Source of the DNA: an uncultured Opitutia bacterium
Lineage (GTDB): Bacteria > Verrucomicrobiota > Verrucomicrobiia > Opitutales > Opitutaceae
Assembly: GCA_903900845.1 (NCBI GenBank)
Contig: CAIUOU010000135.1
Location: 1-60,203, forward strand
Length of the DNA stretch: 60,203 nucleotides
Direction: 5' to 3'
Shown here: piece by piece, positions 4,723 to 59,684 of the stretch
Layout of the letters: each line of letters begins with the position of its first letter
Position numbering within the stretch: the first letter of the stretch is position 1
Notes under the pieces: generated by a model
What the model saw: only the letters and a program-made list of their open reading frames with translations
The model's database searches: none
What the model was told of the DNA's origin: nothing
Made by a program: the position numbers and the translations under genes

Positions 4723-4773
4723 TCACAGATGAGAAATCAACCTAGTTGGTGGCGTTGGAAGGAGTCCGCCGCC

Positions 4774-7942: not shown

Positions 7943-7964
7943 GCGGCGCGCGCCGTTTCCGTCC

Positions 7965-9116: not shown

Positions 9117-9186
9117 AGCGCGTTGGCCTTGAGCGGTGAAGCGTAGAGAGCGGAAGGTTCGTCCGAAGGGCAGGCGGCTGGAGCCA

Positions 9187-9310: not shown

Positions 9311-9375
9311 ATCCGCGCCGCGCGTTCCCACGCACTTCTTTCCCGGTGCGTGGTCGCCGGGACAAGGCCGCTTTG

Positions 9376-35662: not shown

Positions 35663-36367
35663 TTGACGGGGTCGCGGGCCGCGCGTTGGCTCGAATGGAT
35701 GAGCAAGCTGCGCGGCGACTACAAGTCGGTCTGGAACTCCCTCTCAGGTTCGAAGCAGGACGCCTACCTTTACGTCGCCGGCTACACCGACGAGGACAAG
35801 TTTCATGCCGACGCCGAGGACACCGTCGATATCCTGCGCGAGACCGTCGGGGTAAAGGCGGAGGACGTTTTCCTCGAGATCGGCTGCGGGGTAGGCCGGG
35901 TGGGCCGCGTATTATCCCCCTTCGTCAAGCAGTGGGTTGGCTGCGACGTGTCCGCGAACATGCTGAGGCTGGCGGGTCGGCGGTTGCTAGGATTGGAGAA
36001 CGTCAAACTGCAGGAGATCTCCGGATATGATCTGCAGCCGATCCCAGATGAGTCGGTCGACGTGGTCTACACCACGGTGGTGTTCATGCATCTGGAAGAG
36101 TGGGACCGCTACAACTACGTGCGGGAGGCGAGGCGGGTGTTACGGCCGGGCGGGCGCTTTTACTGCGACAACGTTGATCTAGCCTCGAAGGCCGGATGGG
36201 CGGTTTTCGAGGAGAGCCTGCGTTTCCCTCCTGGGGATAGACCGGCCCAGATCTCCAAGTGCTCCACGCAGCCGGAACTGGAGGCCTTTCTCCGCCATGC
36301 CGGCTTCAATGACGTGAAAGTGGCCGGTCGCCTCGATTTCTGGGCCTACGCGTGGGGCCGGAAGTAG
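35663..36367 (+). CDS. Class I SAM-dependent methyltransferase
   Basis: A 234-residue cytosolic methyltransferase of the UbiE/Methyltransf_11 type. Motif I is VFLEIGCGVGRVGRVL near 68-83, motif II WVGCDVSANML, post-motif IPDESVDVVYTTVVFMHL and motif VREARRVLRPGGRFYCDN. The acceptor is unknown. The start is uncertain: TTG 35663 has a good Shine-Dalgarno (GGGAGGT at 35653-35659), whereas ATG 35699 (222 residues) has none; I prefer TTG. It stands alone, convergent with the tRNA-Pro gene, with a repeat-filled gap downstream. Confidence 0.85.
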   Translation: MTGSRAARWLEWMSKLRGDYKSVWNSLSGSKQDAYLYVAGYTDEDKFHADAEDTVDILRETVGVKAEDVFLEIGCGVGRVGRVLSPFVKQWVGCDVSANMLRLAGRRLLGLENVKLQEISGYDLQPIPDESVDVVYTTVVFMHLEEWDRYNYVREARRVLRPGGRFYCDNVDLASKAGWAVFEESLRFPPGDRPAQISKCSTQPELEAFLRHAGFNDVKVAGRLDFWAYAWGRK

Positions 36368-36442
36368 CAGCGGAAGCGCGGCCCGCCCGCGGAGTGAGTG
36401 AGACGCGGGAGATCGTCCAGAGAGCGAGACCTCCAGAGACCC

Positions 36443-36700
36443 GGATCAACCAACCGGGCAACCCCGGATCGACCCAGTTCAAGCCTGTCCCTTGTTCCGT
36501 TGGTCCTTCGGCCCATCGCCAGCGGCGGACTCTCTCGCGGGGTCAGGGCGTTGAGTGTTTTTAGACGCGGCTGTCCGATCCGTTCGTAAACGTTCAACGC
36601 CCTGACCCCAATGGCGTTAACCCGCTGATGGCGCGGACTGGCAGGTAAGGCGACAGGCCTTTCCGAGCTCCGCGGCCTTCCAGTTCAAAACCCTGCTGTT
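36443..36700 (+). repeat. Degenerate composite repeat, copy 7, around the second inverted-repeat element
   Basis: In the 413-bp gap between the methyltransferase and tRNA-Pro 3' ends. Visible pieces: GGCAACCCCGGATCGACCC (about 36458-36476), a decayed 10-bp unit pair; GCTGATGGC, GCGGACTGG (36624-36641), the last two units of the 9-bp class; and the tail AGGCCTTTCCGAGCTCCGCGG with GGCCTTCCAGTTCAA (about 36655-36690). The inverted-repeat element at 36539-36609 sits in the middle. No gene is seen. Confidence 0.65.
36539..36609. repeat. Inverted-repeat element, copy B
   Basis: A 16-bp perfect inverted repeat, GGGGTCAGGGCGTTGA (36539-36554) and TCAACGCCCTGACCCC (36594-36609), with a 39-nt core like that of copy A at 27.8 kb. 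Both copies lie between convergent transcription units, in the same orientation, and both are followed by a GGCGTTAA sequence. Confidence 0.85.
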
Positions 36701-36780
36701 CCGGCGTTGGTTGTTGGTGCGAGCAGCCGTTCCCCCGACACGAGGAAACGCACCAAACCGCATCACCGCGGCGGGGAAAA

Positions 36781-36857
<77 letters not shown>

Positions 36858-37035
36858 AAACAAAAAGGGAGGGAGAGGAAGCGTCACGCTCCGTTCCGAA
36901 GCAAGGCCTTTTTCGGCGCCCGGCCACGCGCCGCTTCCACCGGAGCGGTACGCACATTTTCTGCTTCGCGCCGGGCCCCCGGGGCGCTGTCTTTTCGCCT
37001 GTCGCCGCGCCCCGCGGCGGCGTCTGATTTCCCCG

Positions 37036-38781
37036 ATGCGCATCCTGATGATTCCCTTCCTTGCGGCCTTGCTCGCGCTGACCGCCGCCGCGGCCGCGCC
37101 GCGTCCCAACATCGTTCTCATCATGTCGGATGACATGGGTTACTCCGATCTCGGTTGCTACGGGGGCGAGATCCCCACGCCCAACCTCGACTCGCTCGCC
37201 GCCGGCGGGGTGCGTTTCACCCAGTTTTACAACGGGGCGCGCTGCTGTCCCACGCGCGCCTCGCTGCTCACGGGGCTGTACGCCCAGCAGGCTGGCATCG
37301 GCCATATGGTGGAGGATCTCGGCACACCTGCCTACCGCGGCGAACTGAGCCGACGCGCGGTCACGATCGCCGAGGCGCTCAAGCCCGCCGGCTACCGGTC
37401 CTACCTGGCCGGCAAGTGGCACGTCACGCCCGGCCGACCCGTCGAGCGGATGAAAGCCCACGACCAGAACTGGCCTCTGAAACGCGGCTTCGACCGCTTC
37501 TACGGGACCATCCATGGATCCGGCAGCTTCTGGGATCCCAGCGCGCTCATGCGCGACGATCGCTTCATCTCCCCCGCCAACGATCCGGAGTACCAGCCAA
37601 AGGAGTATTACTATACCGACGCGATCAGCGACCACGCCGTCCGCTACGTGCGGGAGCACGCGCGAGACCATCCCGGCAAACCGTTCTTCCTCTACGTCGC
37701 GCACACCGCGGCCCACTGGCCGATGCACGCGCGCGAGTCCGATATCGCGCGGCACAAGGGTCGCTACGACGCGGGATACGACGCCTTGCGAGTCTCCCGT
37801 TGGGAGAAGCAAAAGCGGCTGGGCGTGGTCCAGCCCGAGTGGGGCATCTCGCCGACCGCCGAGGATTTTTCCAAGGTCAAGGACCGCGCGTTCGAGACGC
37901 GTTGCATGGAGGTGTACGCCGCGATGGTGGAGGTGATGGATGAGGGCATCGGCCGACTCGTGGCCGAGTTGAAGGCCCAGGGGCAGCTTGAGAACACCCT
38001 GATCCTTTACCTGCAGGACAACGGTGGATGCGCCGAGACCAACGGGCGCACGGGTGTGGGCCAGCCCCGCGCGGCCGCGCCGTCGCTGCCGCCCCTGCCC
38101 AAGGAAACGATCCAGTTTGCCAACCGCCCGCCGCAGACCCGTGACGGCTGGCCGATGAGGGTCGGTTACGGCGTCATGCCCGGCGCGGCCGACACCTACA
38201 TCGCCTACGGCAAGGGCTGGGCGAACGTGAGCAACACGCCCTTCCGCGAGTACAAGCACTGGGTGCACGAGGGCGGCATCTCCACGCCCCTGATCGCCCA
38301 TTGGCCCGCCGGGATGAAGAGCGTCAAGGGCGGCGCACTCTGCCACGAGCCTTCGCACCTGATCGATCTCATGGCGACGGCGGTCGATCTTGCCGGCGCG
38401 CGTCTCCCGACCGAGTACAACGGCGAGCGCATCACGCCGCTCGAGGGCCGCAGCCTGCGGCCGCTCCTGGCCGCCCCGTCCGCCCCGCCGGCCGGCGCGC
38501 CACGCCCGCTTTTCTGGGAGCACGAGGGTAACAAGGCGATGCGCGAGGGCCGCTGGAAGCTCGTCTCCAAACACCGGGGCTCGTGGGAGCTTTATGATAT
38601 CGCCGCCGACCGCACGGAGTCGCGCGACCTCGCCGCCAAGGAACCGGCGCGGGTGAGGGCGATGGCCGCCGCATGGGATGTCTGGGCGGCACGGGTGGGT
38701 GTCGAACCTTGGACCCACGACATCCCCGAAGGTTCGGGCTCGAGCCCCACCGGCAAGAAGAAGTCTGCCAAGGGCGAATAA
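37036..38781 (+). CDS. Secreted sulfatase (formylglycine-dependent arylsulfatase family)
   Basis: Exported 581-residue sulfatase (S1 type). Signal peptide about 1-21. RPNIVLIMSDDMGYSDLGCYG supplies the metal Asp pair (Asp32-Asp33; two overlapping parts RPNIVLIMSDDMG, GYSDLGCYGG). The modification site is CCPTRASLLTG at 70-80, matching CxPxR with Cys70 as the formylglycine residue; it needs a formylglycine-generating enzyme, not present here. GKWHVTPG carries the expected Lys and His, and HWVHEGGIST and LQDNGGCAETN complete the site. It would remove sulfate from glycans or aryl/alkyl esters. C-terminal tail is Lys-rich. Next gene begins 312 bp later. Confidence 0.93.
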   Translation: MRILMIPFLAALLALTAAAAAPRPNIVLIMSDDMGYSDLGCYGGEIPTPNLDSLAAGGVRFTQFYNGARCCPTRASLLTGLYAQQAGIGHMVEDLGTPAYRGELSRRAVTIAEALKPAGYRSYLAGKWHVTPGRPVERMKAHDQNWPLKRGFDRFYGTIHGSGSFWDPSALMRDDRFISPANDPEYQPKEYYYTDAISDHAVRYVREHARDHPGKPFFLYVAHTAAHWPMHARESDIARHKGRYDAGYDALRVSRWEKQKRLGVVQPEWGISPTAEDFSKVKDRAFETRCMEVYAAMVEVMDEGIGRLVAELKAQGQLENTLILYLQDNGGCAETNGRTGVGQPRAAAPSLPPLPKETIQFANRPPQTRDGWPMRVGYGVMPGAADTYIAYGKGWANVSNTPFREYKHWVHEGGISTPLIAHWPAGMKSVKGGALCHEPSHLIDLMATAVDLAGARLPTEYNGERITPLEGRSLRPLLAAPSAPPAGAPRPLFWEHEGNKAMREGRWKLVSKHRGSWELYDIAADRTESRDLAAKEPARVRAMAAAWDVWAARVGVEPWTHDIPEGSGSSPTGKKKSAKGE

Positions 38782-39093
38782 GCGTCGCGGGCATCCACAC
38801 ATCCCGGGCTGTCCAGAGGCGCTCGGGCCGATCGGATCCGGTTGGGGCGCAGGTGCCCGTTCGTCTCGGCTGCCTGTGCGGGCCTTCGGGGTTCACCGGA
38901 AGCGAGTGGAGTAAACGGCGGGTCCCTCTTACGCAGGTGCCGCGCGGGCCAGAGCTGAATCCAGCTGGGCACGGTCCCGCGGAGCGAAATGGACGTGGGT
39001 TTTGTGTTAAATTCCGGTGTCGGCGCCCGGGTGTAGGGGCGCGCATAAGTATTTTTCCTCGCGCGGTTCCGTGCCGGGGGGCGCAATGAAGCA
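38782..39093. other. Gene-free spacer upstream of the TonB receptor
   Basis: 312 bp between the sulfatase stop and the receptor start. No composite repeat, hairpin of the TGTAGCC class, or plausible gene is seen. A short palindrome AGCTGAATCCAGCT (about 38954-38967) and an AT-richer patch (TTTTGTGTTAAATTCC near 39000, GCATAAGTATTTTTCC near 39042-39057) make this the likely promoter region for the receptor-GDPD-glpT-glpQ cluster. I cannot assign boxes with confidence. Confidence 0.4.
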
Positions 39094-42000
39094 ATGATGC
39101 CGACGCGATTCATCCTGGCCATTCTGCTCCCCGCGCTCGCCCTTCCGGCCCAGCAGGCGCCTAACCGGCCCGCCCCGGCGGCGGAGGAGGCGGTGAAGCT
39201 GGAGAGCTTCGTCGTGACGGGCTCGAACATCCGCCGTACCGAGGCCGAGACCGCCCTGCCGGTCACGGTCCTCGATCCGGTGGAGATCGACGCTCGGGGC
39301 GCCGCCACGATGGCCGAATTGTTCGAGACCCTCGGCATCGCCGAGCCGTCCGCGATCACCGAAATCAACAACGGCCCCCAACTGGCGCGCGGCGACGTCG
39401 CCTCCGTCGACCTGCGGGGCATCGGCTCCGGGAGCACGCTCACGCTCCTCAACGGCCGGCGCATGGCGCCGCACCCGATCTCGATGGCCGAGAACGGCGT
39501 GCCTTCGCTGGCGGTGAACATCAACACGGTTCCCCGTGCCCTGATCGAGCGCGTGGAGGTGCTGCGCGACGGCGCCTCCGCCATCTACGGCGCCGACGCC
39601 GCCGCGGGAGTCATCAACAACCGGATCTCCCGCTCCTACACCGGCCGCCAGCTCACGTTGCGCGGCTCGATGACCCAGCACGGCGGGGCGAACGAGGTCG
39701 GTGGCACCTATACTCACGGTTTCAAATCGGGCCGCACCCGGATCGCCTACACCGTCGATTACTTCCACCGCGACGCGCTCGCGGCTTCGCAGCGGCGATT
39801 CGCGCGGAATTCCGACATGCGCATCAGCCGCAATCTGCCCGCGCCTTGGAACGGCCTGCCGCTCGTCGACGCCAACGGCACGACCGTCCGCGACAACGAC
39901 TTTTCCAACACCAACAACGTCAATCAATGGGGCCAGTGGCAGCGCGGTTTCATCCAGTCCGACTTCCTGCGCTTCACCGGCTCCCGGCCCCCGGGCAACA
40001 CCGGCATCAGCACGAGCACCACGCCGCCCGCCGGGGTCGCCTCCCTGGCGGCCGACGGCATGTTCTACCTCTGGCCGGGCCCGGCCGGCGTGAGTTTCCG
40101 CCAGACTGCGGCGTCCAAGAACATCGACAGCCCGGAGAACGCGACGTACTCGAACTGGAACAAGTGGAAGGTGCTGGTCCCGGCCACCGACCGGATGCAG
40201 TTCGCCACCTTCATCGACCGTCCGCTCAACGACCGGCTCGATTTCTTCGCCGATTTCCTCTTCTACCGGGCTTACAGCCGCAACGGCCGCGAGCCGGTGA
40301 ATTTCAAGAACACCGATGACCAGGGGATCTATCTGCCGGCGGCCAACCCCTGGAACCCGTTCGGCGTGCGGTTTTACCATCCGACGGGCGCGCCCAATGC
40401 CGACGGCACGCCGCGGCTCACCGGCACCCCGGCCGATGTCTCGCTCTGGACCGGCATTTCGCCCGGGCAGAACGCCGACACCGCGGGCCAGGGGCTCATG
40501 CCCCGCGTGACCGAGGTCTGGAGCTACGCGTGGCGCCTGCTCGGCGGCGTGCGCGGACGCTTCGGCGAGGACTGGGAATGGGAGAGCGCCCTCGTGGCCT
40601 CCGGTGCGCAGTCGCACGAGTACGAGCGCTTCCAGGTGCGCGAGTCGAAGCTGCGCCGTGCGCTGGCCCGCACCGACTCGACGGCTTTCAACCCGTTCCC
40701 GGTCACCTTCCGTATCGTGAATAATCTCATCACGGTTGACCGGCCATTCGCCAACCCTGCGCCGGTGCTCGACGAGGTCTACGGGGACGAGGACCGTTCC
40801 GGGCGCACCAATCTCTTCCTGTGGGACCTGAAGACCAACGGCCGGCTTTGGCGTTTGGGCCGGGGCGGGCGGGTGGGTGTGGCGACCGGGGTCGAGGTGC
40901 GGCACGAGACCTATTCCGACAAGCGGGCCGCGTATTCCGGGCTGAACCCGCCGGGTTCCGGCGCCGATTTCCCGTTCCTGCGCGAGGGCGACAACGACTT
41001 CCTCGCCCTCAGCTCCAACGTGCCGATCAGCGCCCGTCAGACGATTTTCGCGGCGTACGCGGAGACCGCGCTGCCGTTCGTCACGCGGGAAAACAAGGTG
41101 CCGCTGGTGGACGCGCTGGAGCTCACCCTCGCGGGCCGCTTCGAGCACTTCTCGATCCACGGGCAGACCACCAAGCCGAAGGCCAGCCTTGTCTGGATGC
41201 CGGTGTCGTGGCTGAAGCTGCGCGGCTCCGCGGCGGAGTCGTTCCGCGCGCCGAATCTCGTCCAAACCAACATCACGCCCTTGCGCCGGCAGATCGGCGC
41301 GGGTGATCCTTACCGCGCCGAGGTCACGGGGCTGCCGACTGATTCCTCGGCGCAGCGCACTGTGTTCCGCCAGGGCAACGAGAAGCTGCAGCCCGAGCAG
41401 GCCAAGACCGCCCTTGCCGGACTTGTGCTGGAAGTGCCCGGGGTGCGCGGCCTTTCCCTCAACTTCGACTACTATCGCCTGAACCAGAACGACGTGATCG
41501 AGAACATCGGCGCGCCCGGCACCCTGCTGCGCGACGAGCTCTACCTCGATCTCGCGACGCAGGCCGCGCTCGCCGCCGGTACGCCGATCGACCAGATCGA
41601 CCTCGGATCGGGCACCGCCGCTTACAAGGGCTACGGATCGGTCAGGCGCCGCTCGGTCACGCCCGAGGACCGCGCCGCCTTCGCGGCCTACAACGCCCGC
41701 CAGACCAACGTGGCGGCGCGCCGGGCCCCGGTGGGCGAGGTCGAGAGCATCATCGACAACTACATCAACCTCAGCGGCCGCGACATCGAGGGCTACGAAG
41801 TCGGCGCGCAATGGCGTAGCCCCCGCACGCGCCTGGGATCGTTCACCCTCAGCACCGACGTCACCCGCTACCTCCGGCGCCGCTCCCAAGGCGACGAACA
41901 GGCGCCGATCCTGAACGAGCTCGACCGCAACGGCCGCGTGCGCTGGCGCGGGAATGCTTCGCTCACGTGGCGGCAGGACGGCTGGTCGGCCGGTTGGTTC

Positions 42001-42336
42001 ACCAGTTACTTCCACTCGTTCGTGGACACCTCCGCCGCCACCACCGAGGCGGTGTACCGCGCGCTCGGCCAGCCCGGCTACATCCGGGTTTTCAACGACA
42101 ACGGCATCACGCGCTACCTCCTGCTGGTGGATCCCTTCATGAATCATAACGCGTGGATCTCTTACCGCTTCGACCGCGGATCCGGCGGCTGGCTGCGCGG
42201 GGTCTCCGCGCGCCTCGGGCTGAACAACGTGCTCGATTCCGAGCCGCCGCTGGCGGACGAGACCTACGGCTACGCCGGCGGCTCCGCCAACGTGCGCGGC
42301 CGCCAGGTCACGCTCGAGATCACCCGGAAGTTCTGA
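39094..42336 (+). CDS. TonB-dependent receptor (plug-barrel, no carboxypeptidase-like domain)
   Basis: Outer-membrane receptor of 1080 residues: signal peptide 1-20 (ALALPAQQ), plug from about 35 (VKLESFVVTGSNIRRTEAE, TMAELFETLGIAEPS, GSTLTLLNGRRMAPHPIS, RVEVLRDGASAIYGADAAAG) and a long barrel ending in Phe (EITRKF). The TGSNIRR start places it in the large TonB subgroup common in Xanthomonads and Verrucomicrobia. Only 11 bp separate it from a secreted GDPD gene, followed by glpT and glpQ, so its ligand is probably a glycerophosphodiester or related phospholipid head-group compound. That is inference from context. Two ATGs in tandem (39094, 39097); either could start it. Confidence 0.93.
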   Translation: MMPTRFILAILLPALALPAQQAPNRPAPAAEEAVKLESFVVTGSNIRRTEAETALPVTVLDPVEIDARGAATMAELFETLGIAEPSAITEINNGPQLARGDVASVDLRGIGSGSTLTLLNGRRMAPHPISMAENGVPSLAVNINTVPRALIERVEVLRDGASAIYGADAAAGVINNRISRSYTGRQLTLRGSMTQHGGANEVGGTYTHGFKSGRTRIAYTVDYFHRDALAASQRRFARNSDMRISRNLPAPWNGLPLVDANGTTVRDNDFSNTNNVNQWGQWQRGFIQSDFLRFTGSRPPGNTGISTSTTPPAGVASLAADGMFYLWPGPAGVSFRQTAASKNIDSPENATYSNWNKWKVLVPATDRMQFATFIDRPLNDRLDFFADFLFYRAYSRNGREPVNFKNTDDQGIYLPAANPWNPFGVRFYHPTGAPNADGTPRLTGTPADVSLWTGISPGQNADTAGQGLMPRVTEVWSYAWRLLGGVRGRFGEDWEWESALVASGAQSHEYERFQVRESKLRRALARTDSTAFNPFPVTFRIVNNLITVDRPFANPAPVLDEVYGDEDRSGRTNLFLWDLKTNGRLWRLGRGGRVGVATGVEVRHETYSDKRAAYSGLNPPGSGADFPFLREGDNDFLALSSNVPISARQTIFAAYAETALPFVTRENKVPLVDALELTLAGRFEHFSIHGQTTKPKASLVWMPVSWLKLRGSAAESFRAPNLVQTNITPLRRQIGAGDPYRAEVTGLPTDSSAQRTVFRQGNEKLQPEQAKTALAGLVLEVPGVRGLSLNFDYYRLNQNDVIENIGAPGTLLRDELYLDLATQAALAAGTPIDQIDLGSGTAAYKGYGSVRRRSVTPEDRAAFAAYNARQTNVAARRAPVGEVESIIDNYINLSGRDIEGYEVGAQWRSPRTRLGSFTLSTDVTRYLRRRSQGDEQAPILNELDRNGRVRWRGNASLTWRQDGWSAGWFTSYFHSFVDTSAATTEAVYRALGQPGYIRVFNDNGITRYLLLVDPFMNHNAWISYRFDRGSGGWLRGVSARLGLNNVLDSEPPLADETYGYAGGSANVRGRQVTLEITRKF

Positions 42337-42347
42337 CTCTCGATCCC

Positions 42348-43160
42348 ATGCATTGCCTCGGCCGCATCCCGCTGTTGATTGCGGTCATGACCGCCCGGCT
42401 CGCCGCGGTCGACATCGTCGCCCACCGCGGTGCCTCCCACGACGCGCCCGAGAACACCGTCGCCGCCACGCACCTGGCCTGGCGGCAGGGGGCTGACGCA
42501 GTCGAGACCGACATCCACCTCGCCCAGGACGGTCGCATTATCGTCTGCCACGACCAGACGACCCGGCGGACCACCGGCCGCGACGGCGTGATCGCGGAGA
42601 TGACGCAGGCGGAGTTGCGCACGCTCGATGCCGGGCGTTGGAAGGCGCCGGAGTTCGCCGGCGAGAAGCTGCCGCTCCTCGAGGAACAACTGGCCTCGAT
42701 CCCCGCGGGCAAGACGATGTTGGTGGAGATCAAGACGGGACCCGAGATCGTGCCGGAGTTGCGCCGGGTTTTCGCCGCCTCCGGGATCACGGAACGCCGG
42801 GTGACCGTGATCAGTTTCAACCTCGACACGCTCAAGGCGGTGCGGCGCGAGCTGCCGGCATTCCGCACGCTTTACCTGATGGGTTACAAGGCGGCGGACG
42901 CGAAGGATCCCAACGCCAAGCTTCCACCCTCGATCGAAGAGGTGATCCGCGACGCCCGTTCGACCGGCCTCACCGGCCTCGACCTGCAGCACACTTGGCC
43001 GCTCACGCCCGCCGAGGTGAAGCGTGTCCGCGACGCCGGTCTCGAGCTGCACGTTTGGACGGTCGATGACCCCGCCGTTGCGCGCCGCTGGATCGGGTTG
43101 GGGGTGCAGAGCATCACCACCAATCGCCCGGGCTGGCTCCGGGAGCAGATCCGGCTTTAG
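42348..43160 (+). CDS. Glycerophosphodiester phosphodiesterase (UgpQ-like size, exported)
   Basis: Hydrolyses glycerophosphodiesters to sn-glycerol 3-phosphate and an alcohol. 270 residues, with a hydrophobic N-terminus (about 6-22) ending ARLAAVD, probably a signal peptide. The GDPD signature is complete: IVAHRGASHDAPENT (catalytic His), ADAVETDIHLAQDGRIIVCHD (given as ADAVETDIHL and DGRIIVCHD; metal Glu/Asp and second His) and LVEIKTGPEIVPE, with HVWTVDDP near the end. The short length is like UgpQ, but the export signal would put it in the periplasm. It lies 11 bp after the TonB receptor and 9 bp before glpT. Confidence 0.93.
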   Translation: MHCLGRIPLLIAVMTARLAAVDIVAHRGASHDAPENTVAATHLAWRQGADAVETDIHLAQDGRIIVCHDQTTRRTTGRDGVIAEMTQAELRTLDAGRWKAPEFAGEKLPLLEEQLASIPAGKTMLVEIKTGPEIVPELRRVFAASGITERRVTVISFNLDTLKAVRRELPAFRTLYLMGYKAADAKDPNAKLPPSIEEVIRDARSTGLTGLDLQHTWPLTPAEVKRVRDAGLELHVWTVDDPAVARRWIGLGVQSITTNRPGWLREQIRL

Positions 43161-43169
43161 TTCGCGGCC

Positions 43170-44516
43170 ATGTTATCCCTGCTGCGCCCCGCCCCCGCCG
43201 CGCCGCCCCTGCCGGCCGAGCGGATCGACCCCGAGTACCGCCGCCTGCGCTGGCAGGTCTTCACGGGTATCTTTGTCGGCTACGCCGCTTTTTACCTGGT
43301 GCGGAAGAATTTCGCGCTGGCGATCCCGGACATCCTGAAGGAGCACCCGGAATACTCGAAGACGGCGCTAGGCTCGGCGATGACGGGGCTTTCGGTGGCC
43401 TACGGCATTTCGAAATTCATCATGGGCTCGGTCTCGGACCGCAGCAACCCGCGCTGGTTCATGACGATTGGCCTGCTGCTGACGGCGGGCGTGACCTTCG
43501 CGTTCGGCACCATCCCGGCGATCTACGGGTCGCTGACGGCGATCATCGTGCTGCAGACGTTGAACGGCTGGTTCAACGGCATGGGCTGGCCTCCCTGCGG
43601 CAAGACCATGGTGCACTGGTGGAGCACCAACGAGCGGGGGGTGACGGTCTCGTTCTGGAACGTCGCCCACAATATCGGCGGCGGACTGGTGGCCAAACTC
43701 GCCTTGTTGGGCGTGGTGATCTTCGGAGGCTGGGGCGCGAAATTTTACTTTCCGGCGATGGTGGCGGCCGCGGTCGCGGTCCTCATCGCCTTCCTGCTGC
43801 GCGACACCCCTCAGAGCTGCGGGCTGCCGCCGATCGAGCGGCATCGCAACGACTACCCGCCGGCGTACTCGGCGGAGCACGAGCGCACCTTCACGTTCCG
43901 CGAGATCTTTTTCGAGCACGTGCTCAACAACCGGTACCTTTGGGCAATCGCGGTCGCCAACGCGTTCGTCTACTTCGTGCGCTACGGCGTGGTCGATTGG
44001 ATCCCGACCTACCTGCAGACCGCGAAGAAGTTCTCCTTCCAACAGTCGAGCTGGGCGTGGGCCGCCTTCGAGTTTGCGGGCATCCCGGGCACGATCCTCT
44101 GCGGATGGGTGTCCGACCGGATCTTCCAGGGGCGCCGCGCCCCGGCCACCATCCTCTTCATGGTGCTCACCCTCGCCGGCCTCGTGGTGTACGGACTCAA
44201 CCGGGAGGGCCCGCTCTGGATCGACATCGCGTCGCTGATCGCGATCGGGTTCTTCGTCTACGGCCCGATCATGATCATCGGCCTGCATGCGCTCGACCTC
44301 GTGCCCAAGAAGGCGGCGGGCACCGCCGCGGGCTTCACCGGCTTCTTCGGCTATGTCTTCGGTTCCGCCATCGCCGGCGCCGGGGTCGGCTGGATCGCCG
44401 ACCATTGGGGTTGGGGCGGCGTCTTCGCCACGATGATCGTCTGCTGCCTCCTAACCATCGTCTTCAGCGCCATGACTCTCGGCCACCGCGCGACCAGTTC
44501 GTCGTCCGCCGGCTGA
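43170..44516 (+). CDS. glpT: Glycerol-3-phosphate:phosphate antiporter (GlpT family MFS)
   Basis: Inner-membrane MFS organophosphate:phosphate antiporter, 448 residues with about 12 hydrophobic helices. The OPA signature is clear: GIFVGYAAFYLVRKNFALA (substrate-phosphate Arg/Lys), GISKFIMGSVSDRSNPRWFM, LQTLNGWFNGMGWPPCGKTM and SFWNVAHNIGGGL; in the second half VRYGVVDWIPTYL. These are the features of E. coli GlpT rather than UhpT. It would import sn-glycerol 3-phosphate released by the two phosphodiesterases flanking it (9 bp upstream, 37 bp downstream). Confidence 0.94.
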   Translation: MLSLLRPAPAAPPLPAERIDPEYRRLRWQVFTGIFVGYAAFYLVRKNFALAIPDILKEHPEYSKTALGSAMTGLSVAYGISKFIMGSVSDRSNPRWFMTIGLLLTAGVTFAFGTIPAIYGSLTAIIVLQTLNGWFNGMGWPPCGKTMVHWWSTNERGVTVSFWNVAHNIGGGLVAKLALLGVVIFGGWGAKFYFPAMVAAAVAVLIAFLLRDTPQSCGLPPIERHRNDYPPAYSAEHERTFTFREIFFEHVLNNRYLWAIAVANAFVYFVRYGVVDWIPTYLQTAKKFSFQQSSWAWAAFEFAGIPGTILCGWVSDRIFQGRRAPATILFMVLTLAGLVVYGLNREGPLWIDIASLIAIGFFVYGPIMIIGLHALDLVPKKAAGTAAGFTGFFGYVFGSAIAGAGVGWIADHWGWGGVFATMIVCCLLTIVFSAMTLGHRATSSSSAG

Positions 44517-44553
44517 TCCGCCGTGCGGCCCGCCGCCCTTGTTTCCTTTCCCC

Positions 44554-45573
44554 ATGAAGTTCGTCTTCCTGCTTTGTCTCGCCGCGGGGGTCGCCGCCGC
44601 GGCCTCTGCCCCCGTGCCGCTCGTCGTCGCCCACCGCGGCGCGAGCGGCTACCTGCCCGAGCACACCCAGGCTGCCAAGGCCTACGCCCATGCGCTGGGC
44701 GCGGATTTCATCGAGCAGGATCTCGTGCTCTCCAAGGACGACGTCCCGGTCGTCCTCCACGATGTCCACCTCGACGCCGTCTCCGACGTCGCGACCCGGT
44801 TCCCCGGACGCCAGCGGGCGGACGGGCGTTTCTACGTCCTCGACTTCACGCTGGCCGAGCTCCGGCAACTGGCCGTGCATGAACGCATCAACCTGCGCAC
44901 TGGCGCCCCGGCCTACCCGGGACGGTATGACTCGCAGCGCTCACCGGCTGCGTTCCGCATCTCCACTTTGGAGGAGGAGCTGCAGCTCATCCAGGGACTC
45001 AATCGCAGCATCGGGCGCGTCGCCGGCATCTATCCTGAGATCAAGGCTCCGAAATGGCACCGGGACCAGGGGCGTGATCCCAGCCTGGTCGTCCTTCCGA
45101 TCCTCGCGCGGTACGGTTACGCCACGAAGGCCGATCCTTGTTTCCTGCAGTGTTTCGAGCTCGCCGAGGTTCGTCGGCTGCGCGGCGAGCTTGGCTGGAA
45201 GGGGCGTCTCGTGATGCTCATCGGGGGCGGGGCCAAAGAGGTCGACGGCACCGACTACGCGGCCCTTTGTACCCCGGCGGGCATCAAGGAACTCTCCGGA
45301 CTGGTCGACGGCATCGGGCCAGCGATCGGCCGCATTGTCACGTGGCCGTCGGCGGGCGGGGCGCCGGTCTTCACCGATCTGGTGCGGCTCGCCCGCGAGG
45401 CCGGGCTCGGGGTTCACCCGTACACCGTGCGCGCCGACGATCTGCCGCGGCATTGTCCTTCCCTCGACGCGTTGCACGAGGCGCTGTTCATCACCGCGCG
45501 CGTCGACGGGGTGTTCACCGACTTCCCGGATCGCACCAGCGCATGGTTGCGCCGCGCGGGCAGCCGCCCTTGA
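44554..45573 (+). CDS. glpQ: Periplasmic glycerophosphodiester phosphodiesterase (GlpQ)
   Basis: 339 residues with a signal peptide 1-23 (AGVAAAASAP). The sequence follows E. coli GlpQ closely: VVAHRGASGYLPEHTQAAK, GADFIEQDLVLSKDDVPVVL, HDVHLDAVSDVATRFPGR, VLDFTLAELRQL and IYPEIKAPKWHRDQG, including the metal Glu/Asp, the catalytic His pair and the family-typical insertion. It releases glycerol 3-phosphate from a range of glycerophosphodiesters. Last gene of the receptor-GDPD-glpT-glpQ cluster; the window thus has two exported GDPDs of different size classes around one transporter. ATG 44554 is preferred over the earlier in-frame 44539. Confidence 0.95.
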   Translation: MKFVFLLCLAAGVAAAASAPVPLVVAHRGASGYLPEHTQAAKAYAHALGADFIEQDLVLSKDDVPVVLHDVHLDAVSDVATRFPGRQRADGRFYVLDFTLAELRQLAVHERINLRTGAPAYPGRYDSQRSPAAFRISTLEEELQLIQGLNRSIGRVAGIYPEIKAPKWHRDQGRDPSLVVLPILARYGYATKADPCFLQCFELAEVRRLRGELGWKGRLVMLIGGGAKEVDGTDYAALCTPAGIKELSGLVDGIGPAIGRIVTWPSAGGAPVFTDLVRLAREAGLGVHPYTVRADDLPRHCPSLDALHEALFITARVDGVFTDFPDRTSAWLRRAGSRP

Positions 45574-45715
45574 GGCGGATCGGCGAAGTCTCTCCGGTGT
45601 GAATGGGGAAAGCCGGAAGACGGGAACCGAGGCCGGGGGGAATCTGGAAATCAGTAACGCGGGATGTGCCCATTCGGAATTATGGATGTGGTCCACGCCT
45701 GAAGAAGCACCAGCG

Positions 45716-45742
45716 ATGTAGCCGCGGGGGTCTCCCGCGGAC
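45716..45742 (+). repeat. TGTAGCC hairpin alone, copy 8
   Basis: After glpQ, in the 273-bp gap before the next receptor. TGTAG leads a stem CCGCGGG-GGTCT-CCCGCGG (45722-45740). Compared with the usual CCGCGGC/GCCGCGG, the innermost pair is changed on both sides, which keeps pairing. No triple repeat accompanies it, and nothing else is recognised in the gap. Confidence 0.7.
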
Positions 45743-45846
45743 CTTTCGAGCCTCATGCGCGGGCGGTTTTTCCCGAGCAGAGACGTCGTCGCGCATCACA
45801 GGGCGCCGGCATTGATCTGCGCGGAACCGCCGGTTCAGCTCCTTTC

Positions 45847-48800
45847 ATGTCTTCTTGCTCCCTTTCATCCTCCGCCTTGCGCCGCGGCCTGATTTCAGCG
45901 GTTCTTTTCCTCGCCGCCGTGGGGTCGGCCCAGACGCCGGCGACCGGCACGCTGGCCGGCCGTGTGCAGAACAGCATCGGCGGCGCGGCGCTTGAAAACG
46001 CGCGCGTGACCGTCGGGGGCACCAGCCGCGAGGCCTTCACGGACGCTTTCGGGGAGTATCGCCTCGATGCCCTGCCGGCCGGGGAAGTCACGCTGCGGGT
46101 TTTCTTCACGGGACTCACGCCCCGGACCGCCACGGCGAGGGTCTCGCCAGGTGTGGTCAGCCGGCGAGACTTTGTCCTGGAGCCGTTCGGCTCCGCGCCG
46201 ACGGTGCAGGGGGAGGGCGCGGTTCAGCTCGATTCCTTCGTGGTCGGGACAGCTCGCGACACGAACGCCGCCTCGATCGCGATCAACGAGCAGCGCTTCG
46301 CGGGCAACATCAAGACGGTGCTGCACACCGAGGCGATGGGCGATATCATCCAGAACAACCTCGGTGAGTTTGTGAAATACCTGCCGGGTGTCGACGTCGG
46401 CACCGACCAGATGAACTCCGTGCAGATCGGCCTGCGCGGACTCCCCTCGGCGTACACCAACATCGCGTTGGACGGCGACGACGTGAATGCCGCCGGTTCC
46501 GCCGGCCCCACGCGCAACACGCTTCTGCAGGCGTTCTCCCTCAACAACGCCTCGCGGGTGGAGATCTACAAGGTGCCCACGCCGGATATGTCGGCGGCCA
46601 GCCTCGGCGGCTCCATCAATATGGTCAGCCGCACCGCCTTCGAGGCGAGCCGCCCCGAGCTGCGCTTCAAGGCCTACATCAACCGAAACTCCCGGGATCT
46701 CGCCTTCAGCAAACAGCCCGGCGGCGGCGACGGCGATGACCAGAAGCGCGTCTTCCATTACCAGCCCGACTTCGACTTCGCGTACACCGTCCCGCTCACG
46801 AAGGACTTCGGCTTCTCCGTGAACGCGGTGAAGAACGACCAGTACGGCGTCGCACGGCGCATCAACCGCGCGTTCAACACGAGCACGACCGCGGCTAATC
46901 CGCTGAAGGCCACCGTCGATAACCCCTACCTCACCACCTACCAGTACAACGTCTTCCCCGTCTACGAGCACCGCTACTCGCTCGGCACGCGGCTCGACTG
47001 GCGCCTCGCCCCCGCCGACACGCTTTCCTTCACCTACTCCGGGAACTGGCTCGTCCAGGATTATGAGCAGCACAATTTCGTCCTCAATACCGGCACCAAC
47101 CCCGTGGCCTGGGGGGCTGATTTCACCCATGGCCGGCCCGGCTCGGGGGCCGTCAACGTCAACAACACCGCCCGCTACGTCCGGGTGCGGAACAATATTT
47201 TCCGGCTCAACTACCGCCATGTGGGCCGGAACTGGGACGTCACAGCGGCCGCCGGTTACAACTTTTCGGACCAGACGTACCGGGCGAACTCCCACCGGCA
47301 GTTCGAGACCGCCGCCGCCCGCATCCAGGGCGCGGAGATCCGCTTCGACGGCTTCACCGACCACCGCCCCGGGACGGTCACCGTCCGCAACTCCTCCGGC
47401 CAGGTCATCGACCCGCTGCGGGTTTCCAACTACGCTTTTTTTCTCAACGGCTCCAATGCCACGCGCGACAACGACAGCACCGCGCGGAGCGCGAAGATCG
47501 ACTTGCGGCGGAAGTTTTTCGGCGACGCCCTGAATTGGTCGCTGAAGGGTGGCCTTGGGACGGCCGAGCAGTACCGCGCCCGCCGCTCCTCGACGTTTAC
47601 TCCGGTCTATGTCGGCCGGGACGGCGTCGCGGGCAATGCCGACGATTCCGTGGCACTGGCGCCCGTCGACCTCACGAACTACGCGATGCTCGACTATTTC
47701 ATGCCGCGGAACACCCCGCAGCCGCAGTTCGTGAGCAGCCGGCGCGCGTGGGAACTCTACGAGCAGTACCCCTCCTACTTCCAGGTCACCCCGGCCAACC
47801 TGCGCACGGACCTCCGGGCCGACGCGCTCAACACCGAGCAGATCACGGAGCGGATCGACGCCGCCTACCTGCTCGCCGACGCGTCGATGTTCTCTAATCG
47901 CTTCCGCGTGCTCACCGGCGTCCGGCTGGAGCGCACGACCGACGTGGGCCGCACGGTGCTTCAGGACAACAACGCGCAGTACCAGCGGGACTCGCGCACC
48001 GGGGCTCTGCTCCTCACCGCGCAGAACCGGCCGATCCCGATCACCACCGACGGCATCGAGATCGACAAACTCGTCTACCGGAAGCTCGGCGCGCGCATCC
48101 GCAAACAGTACGACGGCCTGTACCCGAGCCTGAACGCCACATTCAACTTCACGCCGAACCTCCTCGGGCGGCTCGGAGTCGCGCGCACGCTCGGCCGGCC
48201 GGATTTCGGGAACATCATGGGCGCGACGAACGTGAACCAGGTCGACTTCAATCCCGATTCTTCCGCGACGGGTTCCGCGCTGGGCACCATCACGACCAAG
48301 AATCCCGGCCTCACTCCCTGGACCGGCCAAAGCCTCGACCTGCGTCTGGAGCATTACTCCGCGAACGGCGGCGAGATTTCCGTTGGTTTCTACCGGAAGC
48401 AGATCCGGAATTTCTTCGCGACGCGGAACTTCCTCGCGACCGCGGAGTTTCTCGAGGGGATCGGTCTCGGCGACGAGTTTGTCGACTATCAGGTCAACGC
48501 GCCGGGCAACGTCAACGGGGTCGCCCATATCAACGGCTATGAGCTCAACGTGAGCCAGCCGCTGTCTTTCTTCACGCGGGCTCCGCTCGCTCGGCACGTC
48601 CGGGTCTTTGCCAACGCGACCCTTGTGCGCACCCGCGGACCGCAGGAGTCCGACTTCCGCGGCTTCACGCCGAAGATGATCAACTGGGGTTTCTTCTACA
48701 ACCGTAACCCGATCTCTTTCAACGCGCGATGGACTTTGGTCGGAAAAAAGAGGGTCGGCACGGTCGCTGCCGCCAACCTCGGGGCGGCTGGCTGGAACTA

Positions 48801-49002
48801 CCAGCAGGAGCGGCTGCGGCTCGACGCCTCGCTCGATTACCGGTTGACTCGCCGCTACGCGCTCTACGCCACGGGCCGTAATGTGTTCAACAACCGCGAC
48901 TCCAACGAGTCCTATGCGATCGGCAGCCCCCGCTACGTGAAGTTCGCCGCCGAGGGGGAGTACGGCGTCACCTTCCAGGTCGGCGTGAAGGGGAGTTTCT
49001 GA
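45847..49002 (+). CDS. TonB-dependent receptor with N-terminal carboxypeptidase-regulatory-like domain
   Basis: Outer-membrane receptor of 1051 residues. Signal peptide about 1-28 (AVGSAQ), a beta-sandwich domain about 32-112 (GTLAGRVQNSIGGAALENA, YRLDALPAGEVTLRVFFTG), a plug beginning near 128 (LDSFVVGTARDTNAASIAINEQRF) with FVKYLPGVDVGTDQMNSVQI and GLRGLPSAYTNIALDGDDV, and a barrel ending VGVKGSF. The plug has a proper GLRG and a DGD loop, unlike the paralogues at 15.8 and 56.6 kb. The ligand is unknown; a hairpin repeat separates it from glpQ, so it is probably its own unit. ATG at 45847. Confidence 0.93.
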   Translation: MSSCSLSSSALRRGLISAVLFLAAVGSAQTPATGTLAGRVQNSIGGAALENARVTVGGTSREAFTDAFGEYRLDALPAGEVTLRVFFTGLTPRTATARVSPGVVSRRDFVLEPFGSAPTVQGEGAVQLDSFVVGTARDTNAASIAINEQRFAGNIKTVLHTEAMGDIIQNNLGEFVKYLPGVDVGTDQMNSVQIGLRGLPSAYTNIALDGDDVNAAGSAGPTRNTLLQAFSLNNASRVEIYKVPTPDMSAASLGGSINMVSRTAFEASRPELRFKAYINRNSRDLAFSKQPGGGDGDDQKRVFHYQPDFDFAYTVPLTKDFGFSVNAVKNDQYGVARRINRAFNTSTTAANPLKATVDNPYLTTYQYNVFPVYEHRYSLGTRLDWRLAPADTLSFTYSGNWLVQDYEQHNFVLNTGTNPVAWGADFTHGRPGSGAVNVNNTARYVRVRNNIFRLNYRHVGRNWDVTAAAGYNFSDQTYRANSHRQFETAAARIQGAEIRFDGFTDHRPGTVTVRNSSGQVIDPLRVSNYAFFLNGSNATRDNDSTARSAKIDLRRKFFGDALNWSLKGGLGTAEQYRARRSSTFTPVYVGRDGVAGNADDSVALAPVDLTNYAMLDYFMPRNTPQPQFVSSRRAWELYEQYPSYFQVTPANLRTDLRADALNTEQITERIDAAYLLADASMFSNRFRVLTGVRLERTTDVGRTVLQDNNAQYQRDSRTGALLLTAQNRPIPITTDGIEIDKLVYRKLGARIRKQYDGLYPSLNATFNFTPNLLGRLGVARTLGRPDFGNIMGATNVNQVDFNPDSSATGSALGTITTKNPGLTPWTGQSLDLRLEHYSANGGEISVGFYRKQIRNFFATRNFLATAEFLEGIGLGDEFVDYQVNAPGNVNGVAHINGYELNVSQPLSFFTRAPLARHVRVFANATLVRTRGPQESDFRGFTPKMINWGFFYNRNPISFNARWTLVGKKRVGTVAAANLGAAGWNYQQERLRLDASLDYRLTRRYALYATGRNVFNNRDSNESYAIGSPRYVKFAAEGEYGVTFQVGVKGSF

Positions 49003-49045
49003 AGGCCGGGTAGATGCCGCTAGGGAGATCTTTCGTGAAGTTGGG

Positions 49046-49272
49046 GTTAACCACGAATGGACACGAAGAGACACGAATGGGAGCAGCTCGGTGTAGCCGG
49101 GGCCGTTTGCCCCGGACCTTGATGTAGCCGCGGCCGCCTGCCGCGGACCAGACCGCCTATGCAACGGCCGAAGGCGTTTCCGAATCGCTCCGCGTTTTTA
49201 ACCGCGGATTTCGCAGATGATGCGGATGAGGAAATGGCAGTAAGCCTTTCCGAACTCCCCGTTCTTCCGTTC
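49046..49272 (+). repeat. Composite intergenic repeat, copy 9a
   Basis: Most complete example. 10-bp units CACGAAT, CACGAAG, CACGAAT (49052, 49062, 49072); two hairpins in tandem, CCGGGGC-CGTTT-GCCCCGG (49097-49115) and CCGCGGC-CGCCT-GCCGCGG (49128-49146), each led by TGTAG; linker CAACGGCCGAAGGCGTTTCC then GAATCGCTCCGCG; 9-bp units GCGGATTTC, GCAGATGAT, GCGGATGAG (49204-49230); tail AAGCCTTTCCGAACTCCCCG up to TTCCAAG. Confidence 0.9.
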
Positions 49273-49294
49273 CAAGCGATGCGGTTCCTGACGC

Positions 49295-49470
49295 GCTCCT
49301 GAATCGCTCCGCGTGGGTCAACCACGGATAGACGCGGATCGACACGGATGAAGTGGGATGGGCGGGTTGGAGCCCAGTTCCTGCGTCGTTTGAGCCTCCG
49401 CGCGGCTATCCAAGAAGTTGGCCGCAAAAAGGCGCAGACGGCGCAAAACGGTGAGGCGATGGGCGGTGGT
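49295..49470 (+). repeat. Composite intergenic repeat, copy 9b
   Basis: Linker CCTGAATCGCTCCGCG, then 10-bp units CACGGAT, CGCGGAT, CACGGAT (49323, 49333, 49343), and a 9-bp class CGCAAAAAG, GCGCAGACG, GCGCAAAAC (49423-49449) introduced by TTGGC; the last class has a decayed relative at about 4702-4722. Confidence 0.75.
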
Positions 49471-49500
49471 GATTAGGGGAAGTGCAATCGCTCGCCGGGA

Positions 49501-49710
49501 GCGAACCACGAATGGACACCAAGGGACACGAATGGGCCCCGCTTGGGTGTAGCCGCGGCCGTTCGCCGCCGAACGTGCTAAAACTGTGACAGCCGAAGGC
49601 TCTCCCGAACGGCTCCGCGGCTTTAACCGCGGATGTCGCCGATGGTGCGGATGAGATTGGAGCGATAAGCCTCCCCGAGCTTTCCGGCCTTCTTGTTCAG
49701 GGCCCTTTAT
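49501..49710 (+). repeat. Composite intergenic repeat, copy 9c
   Basis: Repeats the order of copy 9a: 10-bp units CACGAAT, CACCAAG, CACGAAT (49507, 49517, 49527); an imperfect hairpin CCGCGGC-CGTTC-GCCGCCG (49553-49571) led by TGTAG; linker CAGCCGAAGGCTCTCCCGAA; 9-bp units GCGGATGTC, GCCGATGGT, GCGGATGAG (49629-49655); tail AAGCCTCCCCGAGC to CTTGTTCAGG. Copies 9a-9c fill the 730-bp convergent gap; no gene is seen in it. Confidence 0.85.
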
Positions 49711-49732
49711 CAGCCCCTCTCGGCGCTGAGTT

Positions 49733-50413
49733 TCAGATCTCCATCTTCTCGCCTGGCTTCAGCGGGAACACAGTGTGGCCGGACTCGCTGGCCTTGCGGG
49801 CGAAGGCGGCGCCGTCCTGCGCGATCAGGGGCCACGTGTTGTAGTGCATCGGCACCGCCAGGCGCGGCTTCAGAAAATCCAGCGCGACGAGCGCGTCCTC
49901 CGGTCCCATCGTGTAATTATCGCCTATGGGCAAAAGTGCGGCGTCGAGGTTGGCACGGCCGATTAGCTGCATGTCGAGGAAGAGTGCGGTGTCGCCGGCG
50001 TGGTAAAGCGTTTTACCGCCAGCTTGGAGTAAGATGCCGCAGGGCGTGCCGAGGTACACGGCGTTGAGGCCCGCCTCGACGCTCGAGGAATGATGGGCGA
50101 GGGTGAGCTTCACCTTGCCGAACGGGAAAACATGGGCGCCGCCCGGATTCATGCCGTGGGTCCGCGCGCCTTTGGCGGTGAAATACTCCGCGAGCTCGTA
50201 ATTGGCCACGATGACCGCGTCGTTGCGCTTCGCGATGGAAAGCGCGTCGCCGATGTGATCCTCGTGGCCGTGCGAGACGAGGATCGCGTCGCAGCTCACA
50301 CCCTCCGCCTTTATGGCGGCGGCCGGGTTTCCGGTGAGGAACGGATCGATCAGGATCCGGGCGTTGCCGGTCTCGACGAGAAAGCAGGAGTGACCGAGGT
50401 ACGTGAGGTGCAT
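49733..50413 (-). CDS. UlaG-like metallo-beta-lactamase-fold hydrolase (UPF0173 family)
   Basis: A 226-residue cytosolic metal-dependent hydrolase. MHLTYLGHSCFLVETGNARILIDPF is the family N-terminus (read as MHLTYLGHSCFLVE, then ILIDPFLTGNP); the metal site is SHGHEDHIGDAL, later LAHHSSS and YHAGDTALFLDM, then MHYNTW. These fit the UPF0173/UlaG-like group, whose members act on lactones or phosphoesters; the substrate here is unknown. ATG 50413 is chosen because it matches the family start; an in-frame TTG at 50434 would add seven residues. Confidence 0.88.
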   Translation of the reverse strand: MHLTYLGHSCFLVETGNARILIDPFLTGNPAAAIKAEGVSCDAILVSHGHEDHIGDALSIAKRNDAVIVANYELAEYFTAKGARTHGMNPGGAHVFPFGKVKLTLAHHSSSVEAGLNAVYLGTPCGILLQAGGKTLYHAGDTALFLDMQLIGRANLDAALLPIGDNYTMGPEDALVALDFLKPRLAVPMHYNTWPLIAQDGAAFARKASESGHTVFPLKPGEKMEI

Positions 50414-59500: not shown

Positions 59501-59684
59501 CGGCCTCGAGTGTCATGCCCTCAACTGAAAGGCGCACGCCCTCGAGAAAGGAGCCGGTGGCGGCGTTGGCGACGCGGCCCTCGATGACGCCGGCGCCGCC
59601 TTGCGCGACGACGGGAACGAGGGAGGCGAGGAAAAGCGTGAGGCCGGCGAGCGCGGCACGGACGGACGAAGCGAGCAGACGCAT
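56568..59684 (-). CDS. TonB-dependent receptor with N-terminal carboxypeptidase-regulatory-like domain
   Basis: Outer-membrane receptor of 1038 residues. Signal peptide 1-28 (ASLVPVVAQ), beta-sandwich domain about 31-112 (GVIEGRVANAATGSFLEGV, YRLVGVPAGAVRVRAFYTG), plug from about 126 (LDQFVVATAREMNGAALAIN, EQRFAPNIKSVVAVDEFG) and a barrel ending FGVKGTF. It is a clear paralogue of the receptor at 15.8-19.0 kb: both share the NEQRFA-NI block, FLKFLPGVNIDY-like plug text, SxNGVP loop and the C-terminal SKRLY-D-N segment. ATG 59684 is the signal-peptide start; the frame is open further upstream. No substrate gene is adjacent. Confidence 0.93.
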   Translation of the reverse strand: MRLLASSVRAALAGLTLFLASLVPVVAQGGAGVIEGRVANAATGSFLEGVRLSVEGMTLEAATDSDGNYRLVGVPAGAVRVRAFYTGMVVQTTAVQVTAGGLATADFRLGATAAAGDPGAPVRLDQFVVATAREMNGAALAINEQRFAPNIKSVVAVDEFGDVAEGNVAEFLKFLPGVNIDYAGGNAREVSLNGVPGDYVPVTIAGFSLASAVGGGGGGTNRSVGLDQVSINNLSRVEVEFSPTPDSEGNALGGSVNMVPRSSFERSKPQFNFSTYVLFRDNARDWDRTPAPRHPTRKLHPGADFSYVAPVTRTFGFTLSGGFNRQYSGEPLAQNTWRGTQAATNGAAYPHTTFDRPYLSAFQVRNSGKDTKRSSLGFTVDWKPAPRDRLSLSLQASTFDVMINHNALTFEVGRVNPGDFSLTHTRGAAGQGNIQVVSTGASRMNWTYMPSLTWRHDGPVWRLESGLALSRARNRSNTLRAGLFDTTTSRRTGVTVSFADTFYLRPGAVTVTDAAGLPVDPYSLNTYALTATTGNERSTDDTKHTLYANARRAFRGPVPLTLKGGLDFRQAARDQRLFLPNFTYVGRDGVASATPTPAGDDRPRPFIDPSFSSRTAPYGFPRIEGVSSELLYRHYVDNPTYFTTNANTNYRNLITNSKWAEELVSAAYLRADLGLLQNRLRLTGGLRAEQTNIAAQGPFTDPNRNVQRDAQGRPVLGANGRPIAIAPANTLEFSRLTFLDRGFTAEKEYLRWFPSINASYNVRDDLIARASWSTSIGRPDFNQYSGGVTLPDPENPSPGDQITISNIGIKPWTARAVNVRVEYYLQSVGQISVGAFRRDFENFFGSTTIPAAAEFLELYDLNPNVYGQYPVVTQTNLDRSVRMQGVTLNYRQPLTFLPSWARGLQLYANGSAQRLLGPASANFPGFVPRTANWGFSITREKYSLRANWNYRGAQRRAAIAAGSSIEPGTFTWWSKRLYVDLNAEYTLRRTLAVFANLRNVGDAPDDIKIYGPSTPAVARFRQRTEFGSLWMFGVKGTF

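Follow-up and report, generated by a model that had tools for sequence, protein, structure and literature searches.

The 60,203-nucleotide stretch of DNA analyzed here (the window; positions 1–60,203 of contig CAIUOU010000135.1, forward strand, from an uncultured Opitutia bacterium of the Opitutaceae, assembly GCA_903900845.1) holds a cluster of four genes encoding a TonB-dependent transporter (TBDT, below also the receptor), a glycerophosphodiester phosphodiesterase of the GDPD family, the antiporter GlpT, and the phosphodiesterase GlpQ. Comparison with relatives supports that the receptor is tied to the genes for glycerophosphodiesters and glycerol 3-phosphate (G3P). The locus is probably an outer-to-inner-membrane utilization operon for a glycerol-3-phosphate diester, and carbon use is better supported as its role than phosphate scavenging. 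The four genes are:

39094-42336, plus strand: TonB-dependent receptor (TBDT), 1080 residues, plug at residues 51-173, barrel match at residues 444-1046 (PF07715, PF00593)
42348-43160, plus strand: GDPD-family glycerophosphodiester phosphodiesterase with an N-terminal hydrophobic leader (PF03009, 151.6 bits)
43170-44516, plus strand: GlpT-type glycerol-3-phosphate:phosphate antiporter (1pw4 match; TIGR00712, 613.5 bits)
44554-45573, plus strand: GlpQ-type periplasmic glycerophosphodiester phosphodiesterase (NF008354, 1ydy)

An earlier note on this DNA had described a TBDT, an exported GDPD, GlpT, and GlpQ joined by gaps of 11, 9, and 37 bp. All four stand where it placed them, with these gaps, as seen from coordinates and sequence, and the domain families (Pfam/NCBIfam: TonB plug and barrel, PF03009 twice, and major facilitator superfamily/GlpT) agree with the gene names. 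The start of the GDPD gene was taken as ATG 42348 (the listed open reading frame is longer, from GTG 42153), and that of glpQ as ATG 44554 (TTG 44539 in the list). GlpQ scores above its curated model (NF008354, 360.9 vs. a cut-off of 254) and aligns with 1ydy (E 3.4e-84), including the catalytic His/Glu/Asp stretches AHRGASGYLPEHT, EQDLV, VLHD, and YPEIKAP. The best solved relative of GlpT by far is 1pw4, a glycerol-3-phosphate transporter (E 1.3e-159); the substrate-site Arg/His stretches LVRKN, WNxAHNxGGG, and xRYG are kept relative to it, the substrate-site residues of E. coli GlpT being R45, H165, and R269. The curated equivalog TIGR00712 is narrowly missed (613.5 vs. 632.55 bits, 19 bits short). 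In the GDPD enzyme, the AHRG, ETD, HD, and EIK stretches are conserved in alignment with 2pz0; its leader is seen by eye both in the window gene and in orthologs, and its score with the cytoplasmic UgpQ model is below the cut-off (NF006989, 135.7 vs. 264). The genome itself, a 4.4 Mb draft in 205 contigs that is 96% complete, yields two GDPD-family genes, both in this cluster, and one GlpT match. In three genomes of one genus the GlpT match carries one in-frame TAG each (G132:C102:7916-9247, G135:C75:2472-3806, and G140:C53:23881-25212).

The plug and barrel domains of the receptor both score above cut-off (PF07715, 58.2 bits; PF00593, 92.7 bits), Pfam gives no match to an STN domain in it, and residues 37-43, ESFVVTG, resemble a TonB box by eye. 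An AlphaFold model built from 21 orthologs was poor (predicted local distance difference test, pLDDT, 53.4), whereas a 74-row alignment gave one with pLDDT 87.9. The best aligned solved structure for this second model is BtuB, 1nqe (Z 36.1, 543 residues, root-mean-square deviation 3.1); BtuB, Cir, PfeA, ChuA, and other receptors are matched, with the SusC-type entries 8aa4 and 6zlt lower. The predicted structure confirms the receptor as a TBDT by fold; the fold says nothing on the ligand. Residues typical of the glp-linked receptor group (R148, K405, R929, W282, W358, etc.) were listed and carry no weight here as ligand evidence.

In the route that we propose, the TBDT would take a glycerophosphodiester across the outer membrane with TonB energy, as its gene linkage suggests. 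In the periplasm, GDPD and GlpQ would cut the diester to sn-glycerol 3-phosphate and an alcohol, and GlpT, which exchanges G3P for phosphate, would bring G3P in; these two steps follow from the gene families and the conserved catalytic and substrate-site residues. A GlpD-type enzyme in relatives would then oxidize G3P to dihydroxyacetone phosphate, while in the window's own genome, which has one GpsA-type domain, it may be used by an enzyme of the GpsA type or go directly into lipid synthesis.

Conservation of the linkage was assessed with the receptor and GlpT as queries, first in 76 relatives and then in 252 genomes of the family, the two sets overlapping. Among the 76 relatives, receptor and GlpT orthologs often lie on the same contigs. 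In the 252 genomes, 54 receptor rows were counted (at least 60% identity, E 1e-250 or better); GlpT is downstream on the same strand in 44, six rows stop at a contig end, and four lie apart. The earlier note had named orthologous receptors sitting apart from glp genes as one finding that would speak against it; of the 48 informative rows (54 minus the six at contig ends), 44 are linked to GlpT, in eight genera, and 23 of these 44 come from genomes absent from the first search. The distance from receptor to GlpT is 75-3521 bp in 43 of the linked rows (at most 166 bp in 15) and 8029 bp in the second copy of G032. The linked receptors sit in differing neighborhoods (e.g., L073, L091, L097, and L098), with differing glp content. 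The receptor–glp coupling is no local accident. The contig-end rule was applied to minus-strand rows only, and for one of the rows apart, G133:C733, room beyond the receptor is not established; another, G278:C166, adjoins a GlpD-type gene. Fragments such as G010:C285 (84%) and three rows at 52-57% identity were not counted, and G140 was counted as two fragments.

In a midpoint-rooted tree of 55 receptors (rows with fewer than 900 aligned residues or below 33% identity omitted, as were the duplicates L112-L114 and L123), all 23 rows labeled glp-linked fall inside one 26-row group with a Shimodaira–Hasegawa-like approximate likelihood ratio support of 100. The same group holds L008 (G021), where the receptor stops at a contig end and the contig starts with a GDPD fragment, L092 (G024), where the receptor is apart from glp genes, and L081 (G003), where it stands beside a MIP-family (glpF-like) channel and positions 1-268 of a glycerol kinase. 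Another contig of G003 ends with glycerol kinase positions 279-496 adjoining GDPD, GlpT, and GlpQ, which is likely one operon split by the assembly. Among 79 named loci, GlpT adjoins the receptor in L123, L124, and L128; the other 76 were compared by BLAST (E 1e-12) with GlpD from a relative and GDPD, GlpQ, and GlpT from the window, and the only match is in L134, where a GlpT-like gene of 34% identity lies 4.5 kb away from the receptor; flank lengths vary in these loci, and distant homologs could escape. Hydrolase partners seem to track receptor groups, since paralogous receptors (36-48%) adjoin other hydrolase families (G_glu_transpept, Asparaginase_2, and Amidohydro_3). Hydrolases near paralogous receptors lie at L106:4473-6080, L107:8239-9942, and L131:7053-8036.

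Gene content around this core varies. Between receptor and GlpT there is GDPD in the window and in several genomes of its genus; a GlpD-type gene in L079, L080, L085, L087, L128, L223-L226, L228, and L230, with weaker matches in L222 and in L124/L229 (apparently one genome); both in L088; and nothing in L086 and L227. The two GlpD-type proteins scanned score below the NF008899 cut-off of 360 (L080, 296.5 bits; L124, 340.5 bits), and above those of Pfam DAO and DAO_C. In two genomes glpF and glpK join the cluster: G003, described above, and G002, where a glycerol kinase above cut-off lies 844 bp past GlpQ with a GlpF match in between.

A divergent regulator of the SorC type (PF04198, 205.7 bits for the L080 copy) accompanies the cluster in several relatives. 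Its orthologs of at least 63% identity adjoin the cluster in all ten genomes, of the 76 searched, that hold one, on the receptor side in nine and on the GDPD side in G028; where it stands beside the receptor, the regulator probably lets a phosphorylated ligand induce the operon. Several of the regulator-bearing genomes also have paralogs of the regulator (48-54%) beside a second cluster with GDPD and/or a GlpT-like gene. The second cluster at L116:4961-12203 (G023) comprises a SorC-type regulator paralog, a GDPD-family enzyme, a glycerol-1-phosphate-dehydrogenase-like gene (PF13685, checked in L116 only), and GlpT-like and GlpD-like genes; regulator paralog, GDPD, and GlpT-like gene are also together in G008, G013, and G026. 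This second cluster possibly serves the other enantiomer of glycerol phosphate.

The sequence CGCATAAA is common to nine of the ten intergenic regions between regulator and receptor, and the motif CGCATAA-N3-TTTTNCTCG was derived from it. The window has it with a longer spacer:

39042-39061, plus strand: promoter-like motif CGCATAA-N4-TTTTNCTCG, 52 bp before the receptor start, 0 mismatches at spacer 4

Of 28 regions upstream of a receptor, 12 have the motif when a spacer of 2-4 and at most one mismatch are allowed, at a distance of 52-66 bp from the start codon used; these include loci outside its definition, namely the window (0 mismatches), G026 (0), and G012 (1). G025 has two mismatches and the other fifteen regions, including the defining locus G032, have 3-7. 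The N3 form matches twice in the window's own genome at two mismatches or fewer, both times away from this cluster. In L097 and L128 a perfect left half completes the palindrome TTTATGCGCATAAA; other loci with the regulator have an imperfect one, and GC-rich sequence takes its place in the window, G012, and G026, all without a close regulator ortholog. We infer that the motif may be the promoter for the receptor and the downstream genes and, in relatives, an operator as well. The cluster as a whole would read as a substrate-induced carbon operon. A scan of 36300-50000 gave two sigma-70 promoter and ten terminator sites, vs. 1.4 and 9.5 in shuffles, that is, no signal.

Several observations weigh against such an operon. 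In the own genome GlpD is not found (one short match to a flavin adenine dinucleotide region only), no glycerol kinase gene (glpK) scores above cut-off, and there is no close ortholog of the SorC-type regulator. The upstream motif is absent in the five nearest sisters (G007, G009, G014, G019, and G021; 6-7 mismatches), a sigma-70-like site was not found before the receptor, and one weak terminator-like stem lies at the GDPD–GlpT junction (43139-43154). No glp gene is near the receptor rows G024:C1 and G134:C884. The converse linkage is also weaker: 20 of 63 genomes with a close GlpT are without a linked receptor, and 16 are left after those whose receptor is cut at a contig end (G003, G021, G026, and G138) are set aside. 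In ten of these 16 the GlpT locus was inspected and no receptor of this group is nearby (G001, G028, G036, G116, G124, G250, G262, G270, G273, and G274); as for the other six, G125 and G126 lie outside the inspected set, and in G024, G251, G252, and G263 the contig starts at most 2.1 kb upstream of GlpT. Finally, small diesters could pass through porins, which leaves unexplained why TonB energy would be needed.

Another possible, if unlikely, ligand is a larger molecule with a glycerophosphate part, such as a glycosylated or sulfated glycerophosphodiester or oligomers from glycerol-phosphate polymers (teichoic-acid fragments), too big for porins, from which GlpQ and GDPD would trim off G3P in the periplasm. 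Bacteria usually reserve TonB-dependent transport for ligands that are large or scarce, and the receptor, with 1080 residues, is large. Some neighbors also fit: a 3-keto-disaccharide hydrolase (PF06439, assigned on the L076 copy) stands between receptor and GDPD in L073-L076, the four nearest sister genomes whose contigs extend that far; in L080, GlpQ and the second TBDT (TBDT2, below) are separated by a xylose-isomerase-like TIM barrel; and the cluster has sulfatase-family neighbors in the window, L073-L076, L094, L095, and L098. These accessory genes, however, are patchy, receptor and GlpT are at most 166 bp apart in 15 of the 44 linked rows, and GlpQ is far nearer the E. coli-type chain 1ydy (286.4 bits) than 5t91 (54.8 bits), which we take to be the Bacillus enzyme.

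Phosphate scavenging by a Pho-type operon, resembling PusCD of Flavobacterium, is improbable as the role of the locus. It would be in line with the available portions of a study of Flavobacterium, in which phosphate depletion induces phosphodiesterases beside TBDTs (PMC8115612), and with L125, where a 53% sister receptor diverges from a TBDT2-like gene that is followed by PbfA, of phosphonate breakdown, and a phosphodiesterase (PF01663). The search for Pho boxes suggested in the earlier note for 38782-39093 was, however, negative for the entire window (0 at three mismatches or fewer, 1.6 expected by chance, with the E. coli consensus, which may differ in this phylum). The score with the SusC-type model is far below cut-off (TIGR04056, 29.2 vs. 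368.25), and there is no SusD partner among the adjoining genes (sulfatase, GDPD, GlpT, GlpQ, and second TBDT). Carbon use is favored because glpD, glpK, glpF, and the SorC-type regulator are found in relatives and GlpT is a phosphate antiporter; of the phosphate and carbon scavenging that the earlier note had proposed, the carbon half has thus gained ground and the phosphate half has lost it.

Import of an unrelated ligand (an iron chelate, vitamin, or peptide), with glp adjacency due to chance or shared regulation only, has a similarly small probability: outside the receptor's own group, receptors for siderophores, haem, and B12 give the best models and solved chains, and a few receptor orthologs are apart from glp genes, but the model scores are far below the respective cut-offs, and the linkage persists in eight genera through differing neighborhoods and glp content.

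A sulfatase gene and a second TBDT gene, absent from the earlier note, flank the four genes, and both are partly conserved:

37036-38781, plus strand: sulfatase-family enzyme (PF00884; nearest solved relatives are the arylsulfatases 7all and 1hdh)
45847-49002, plus strand: second TonB-dependent receptor (TBDT2) with a carboxypeptidase-regulatory-like N-terminal domain (PF13620, PF07715, PF00593)

Each is a possible member of the locus. The sulfatase gene ends 312 bp before the receptor in the window; in L073-L076 a sulfatase-family gene is next to the receptor, with a gap of about 78 bp in L073, L075, and L076, where the sulfatase promoter may also drive the receptor gene. TBDT2 starts 273 bp past GlpQ. 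Its orthologs of at least 63% identity are found in 16 of the 76 genomes and lie beside glpT/glpQ in nine (G000, G001, G003, G012, G015, G018, G020, G024, and G026); in G001 and G024, TBDT2 adjoins GlpT–GlpQ in place of the receptor. In L125, a metagenome-assembled genome of Opitutus sp. GAS368, the sister receptor and its neighbors occupy 757-6228 and 6593-9793; PbfA there is (R)-1-hydroxy-2-aminoethylphosphonate ammonia-lyase (NF049939, above cut-off), and the locus is possibly one for phosphonate uptake with TBDTs. The window has two more receptors on the minus strand, at 32989-35124 (best model ZnuD, NF038289, 349.4 bits, far below the cut-off of 950) and at 56571-59678 (34% identical to TBDT2), and the own genome gives 44 first-look receptor candidates.

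Most TonB-dependent receptors of environmental bacteria have, to our knowledge, no known ligand; here, a gene order shared by eight genera points to a single class of ligand. If the proposed diester operon is real, the GlpT/GlpQ pathway has a dedicated outer-membrane entrance, and uptake of lipid head groups or glycerol-phosphate polymers would here be active and TonB-driven, not simple diffusion. A more specific and rather doubtful proposal is that the Opitutaceae receptor group is a dedicated gate for glycerol-phosphate polymers or decorated glycerophosphodiesters (e.g., teichoic-acid fragments, or sulfated or glycosylated head groups from dead cells), part of a complete salvage operon for glycerolipids and wall polymers; such an operon would be of a kind for which no description was found in the literature searched.

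E. coli has one of the closest known systems, with GlpT and GlpQ genes in tandem (the glpTQ operon) and a glp regulon that serves carbon use; the tandem recurs here, and glpD, glpK, and glpF are found in relatives. Neither a TBDT nor a second GDPD is known to us from the operon in E. coli, whose glp repressor is GlpR, of the DeoR family, not the SorC type. For a TBDT in a GlpT/GlpQ locus no description was found in a search by titles and abstract openings that covered few subscription journals; the available portions of two papers mention such parts (TBDT, GlpT/GlpQ) separately (PMC10699075, PMC5673642).

In Caulobacter, the TBDT Cc0171 is proposed to act with ElpS, a secreted phosphate-starvation protein; it differs in its constitutive expression, a TBDT role is not shown in the portions seen, and glycerophosphodiester terms do not occur in the main text (PMC2996285). 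Flavobacterium PusCD shares with the cluster a single locus of outer-membrane TBDT, phosphodiesterases, and inner-membrane transporters, but, as the accessible text has it, is SusC-type with a SusD lipoprotein and induced by phosphate depletion (PMC8115612), whereas here no SusD and no Pho box are seen and G3P catabolic genes occur in relatives. The earlier note had held TonB-driven uptake of glycerophosphodiesters to be not well described; PusCD, with its TBDT–phosphodiesterase pairs, and XanT-XanP of Xanthomonas, published in 2025, qualify this (PMC8115612, PMC12807533). Uptake of a phosphodiester as such by a TBDT is already known from XanT, and it is perhaps the combination with GlpT/GlpQ that is without an earlier description.

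Xanthosan, the XanT-XanP substrate, is a cyclic sugar phosphodiester that an effector produces. XanP belongs to the 2H phosphoesterases, whereas the partner enzymes here match PF03009 (GDPD), and GlpT and GlpQ do not figure as partners in the parts of the paper at hand (PMC12807533). As far as XanT and the receptor can be compared by description, the likeness would be a TBDT gene co-transcribed with a phosphodiesterase gene and an intact phosphodiester taken up as a nutrient, both proposed for the present locus, and the uptake backed in Xanthomonas by mutants and uptake assays (PMC12807533).

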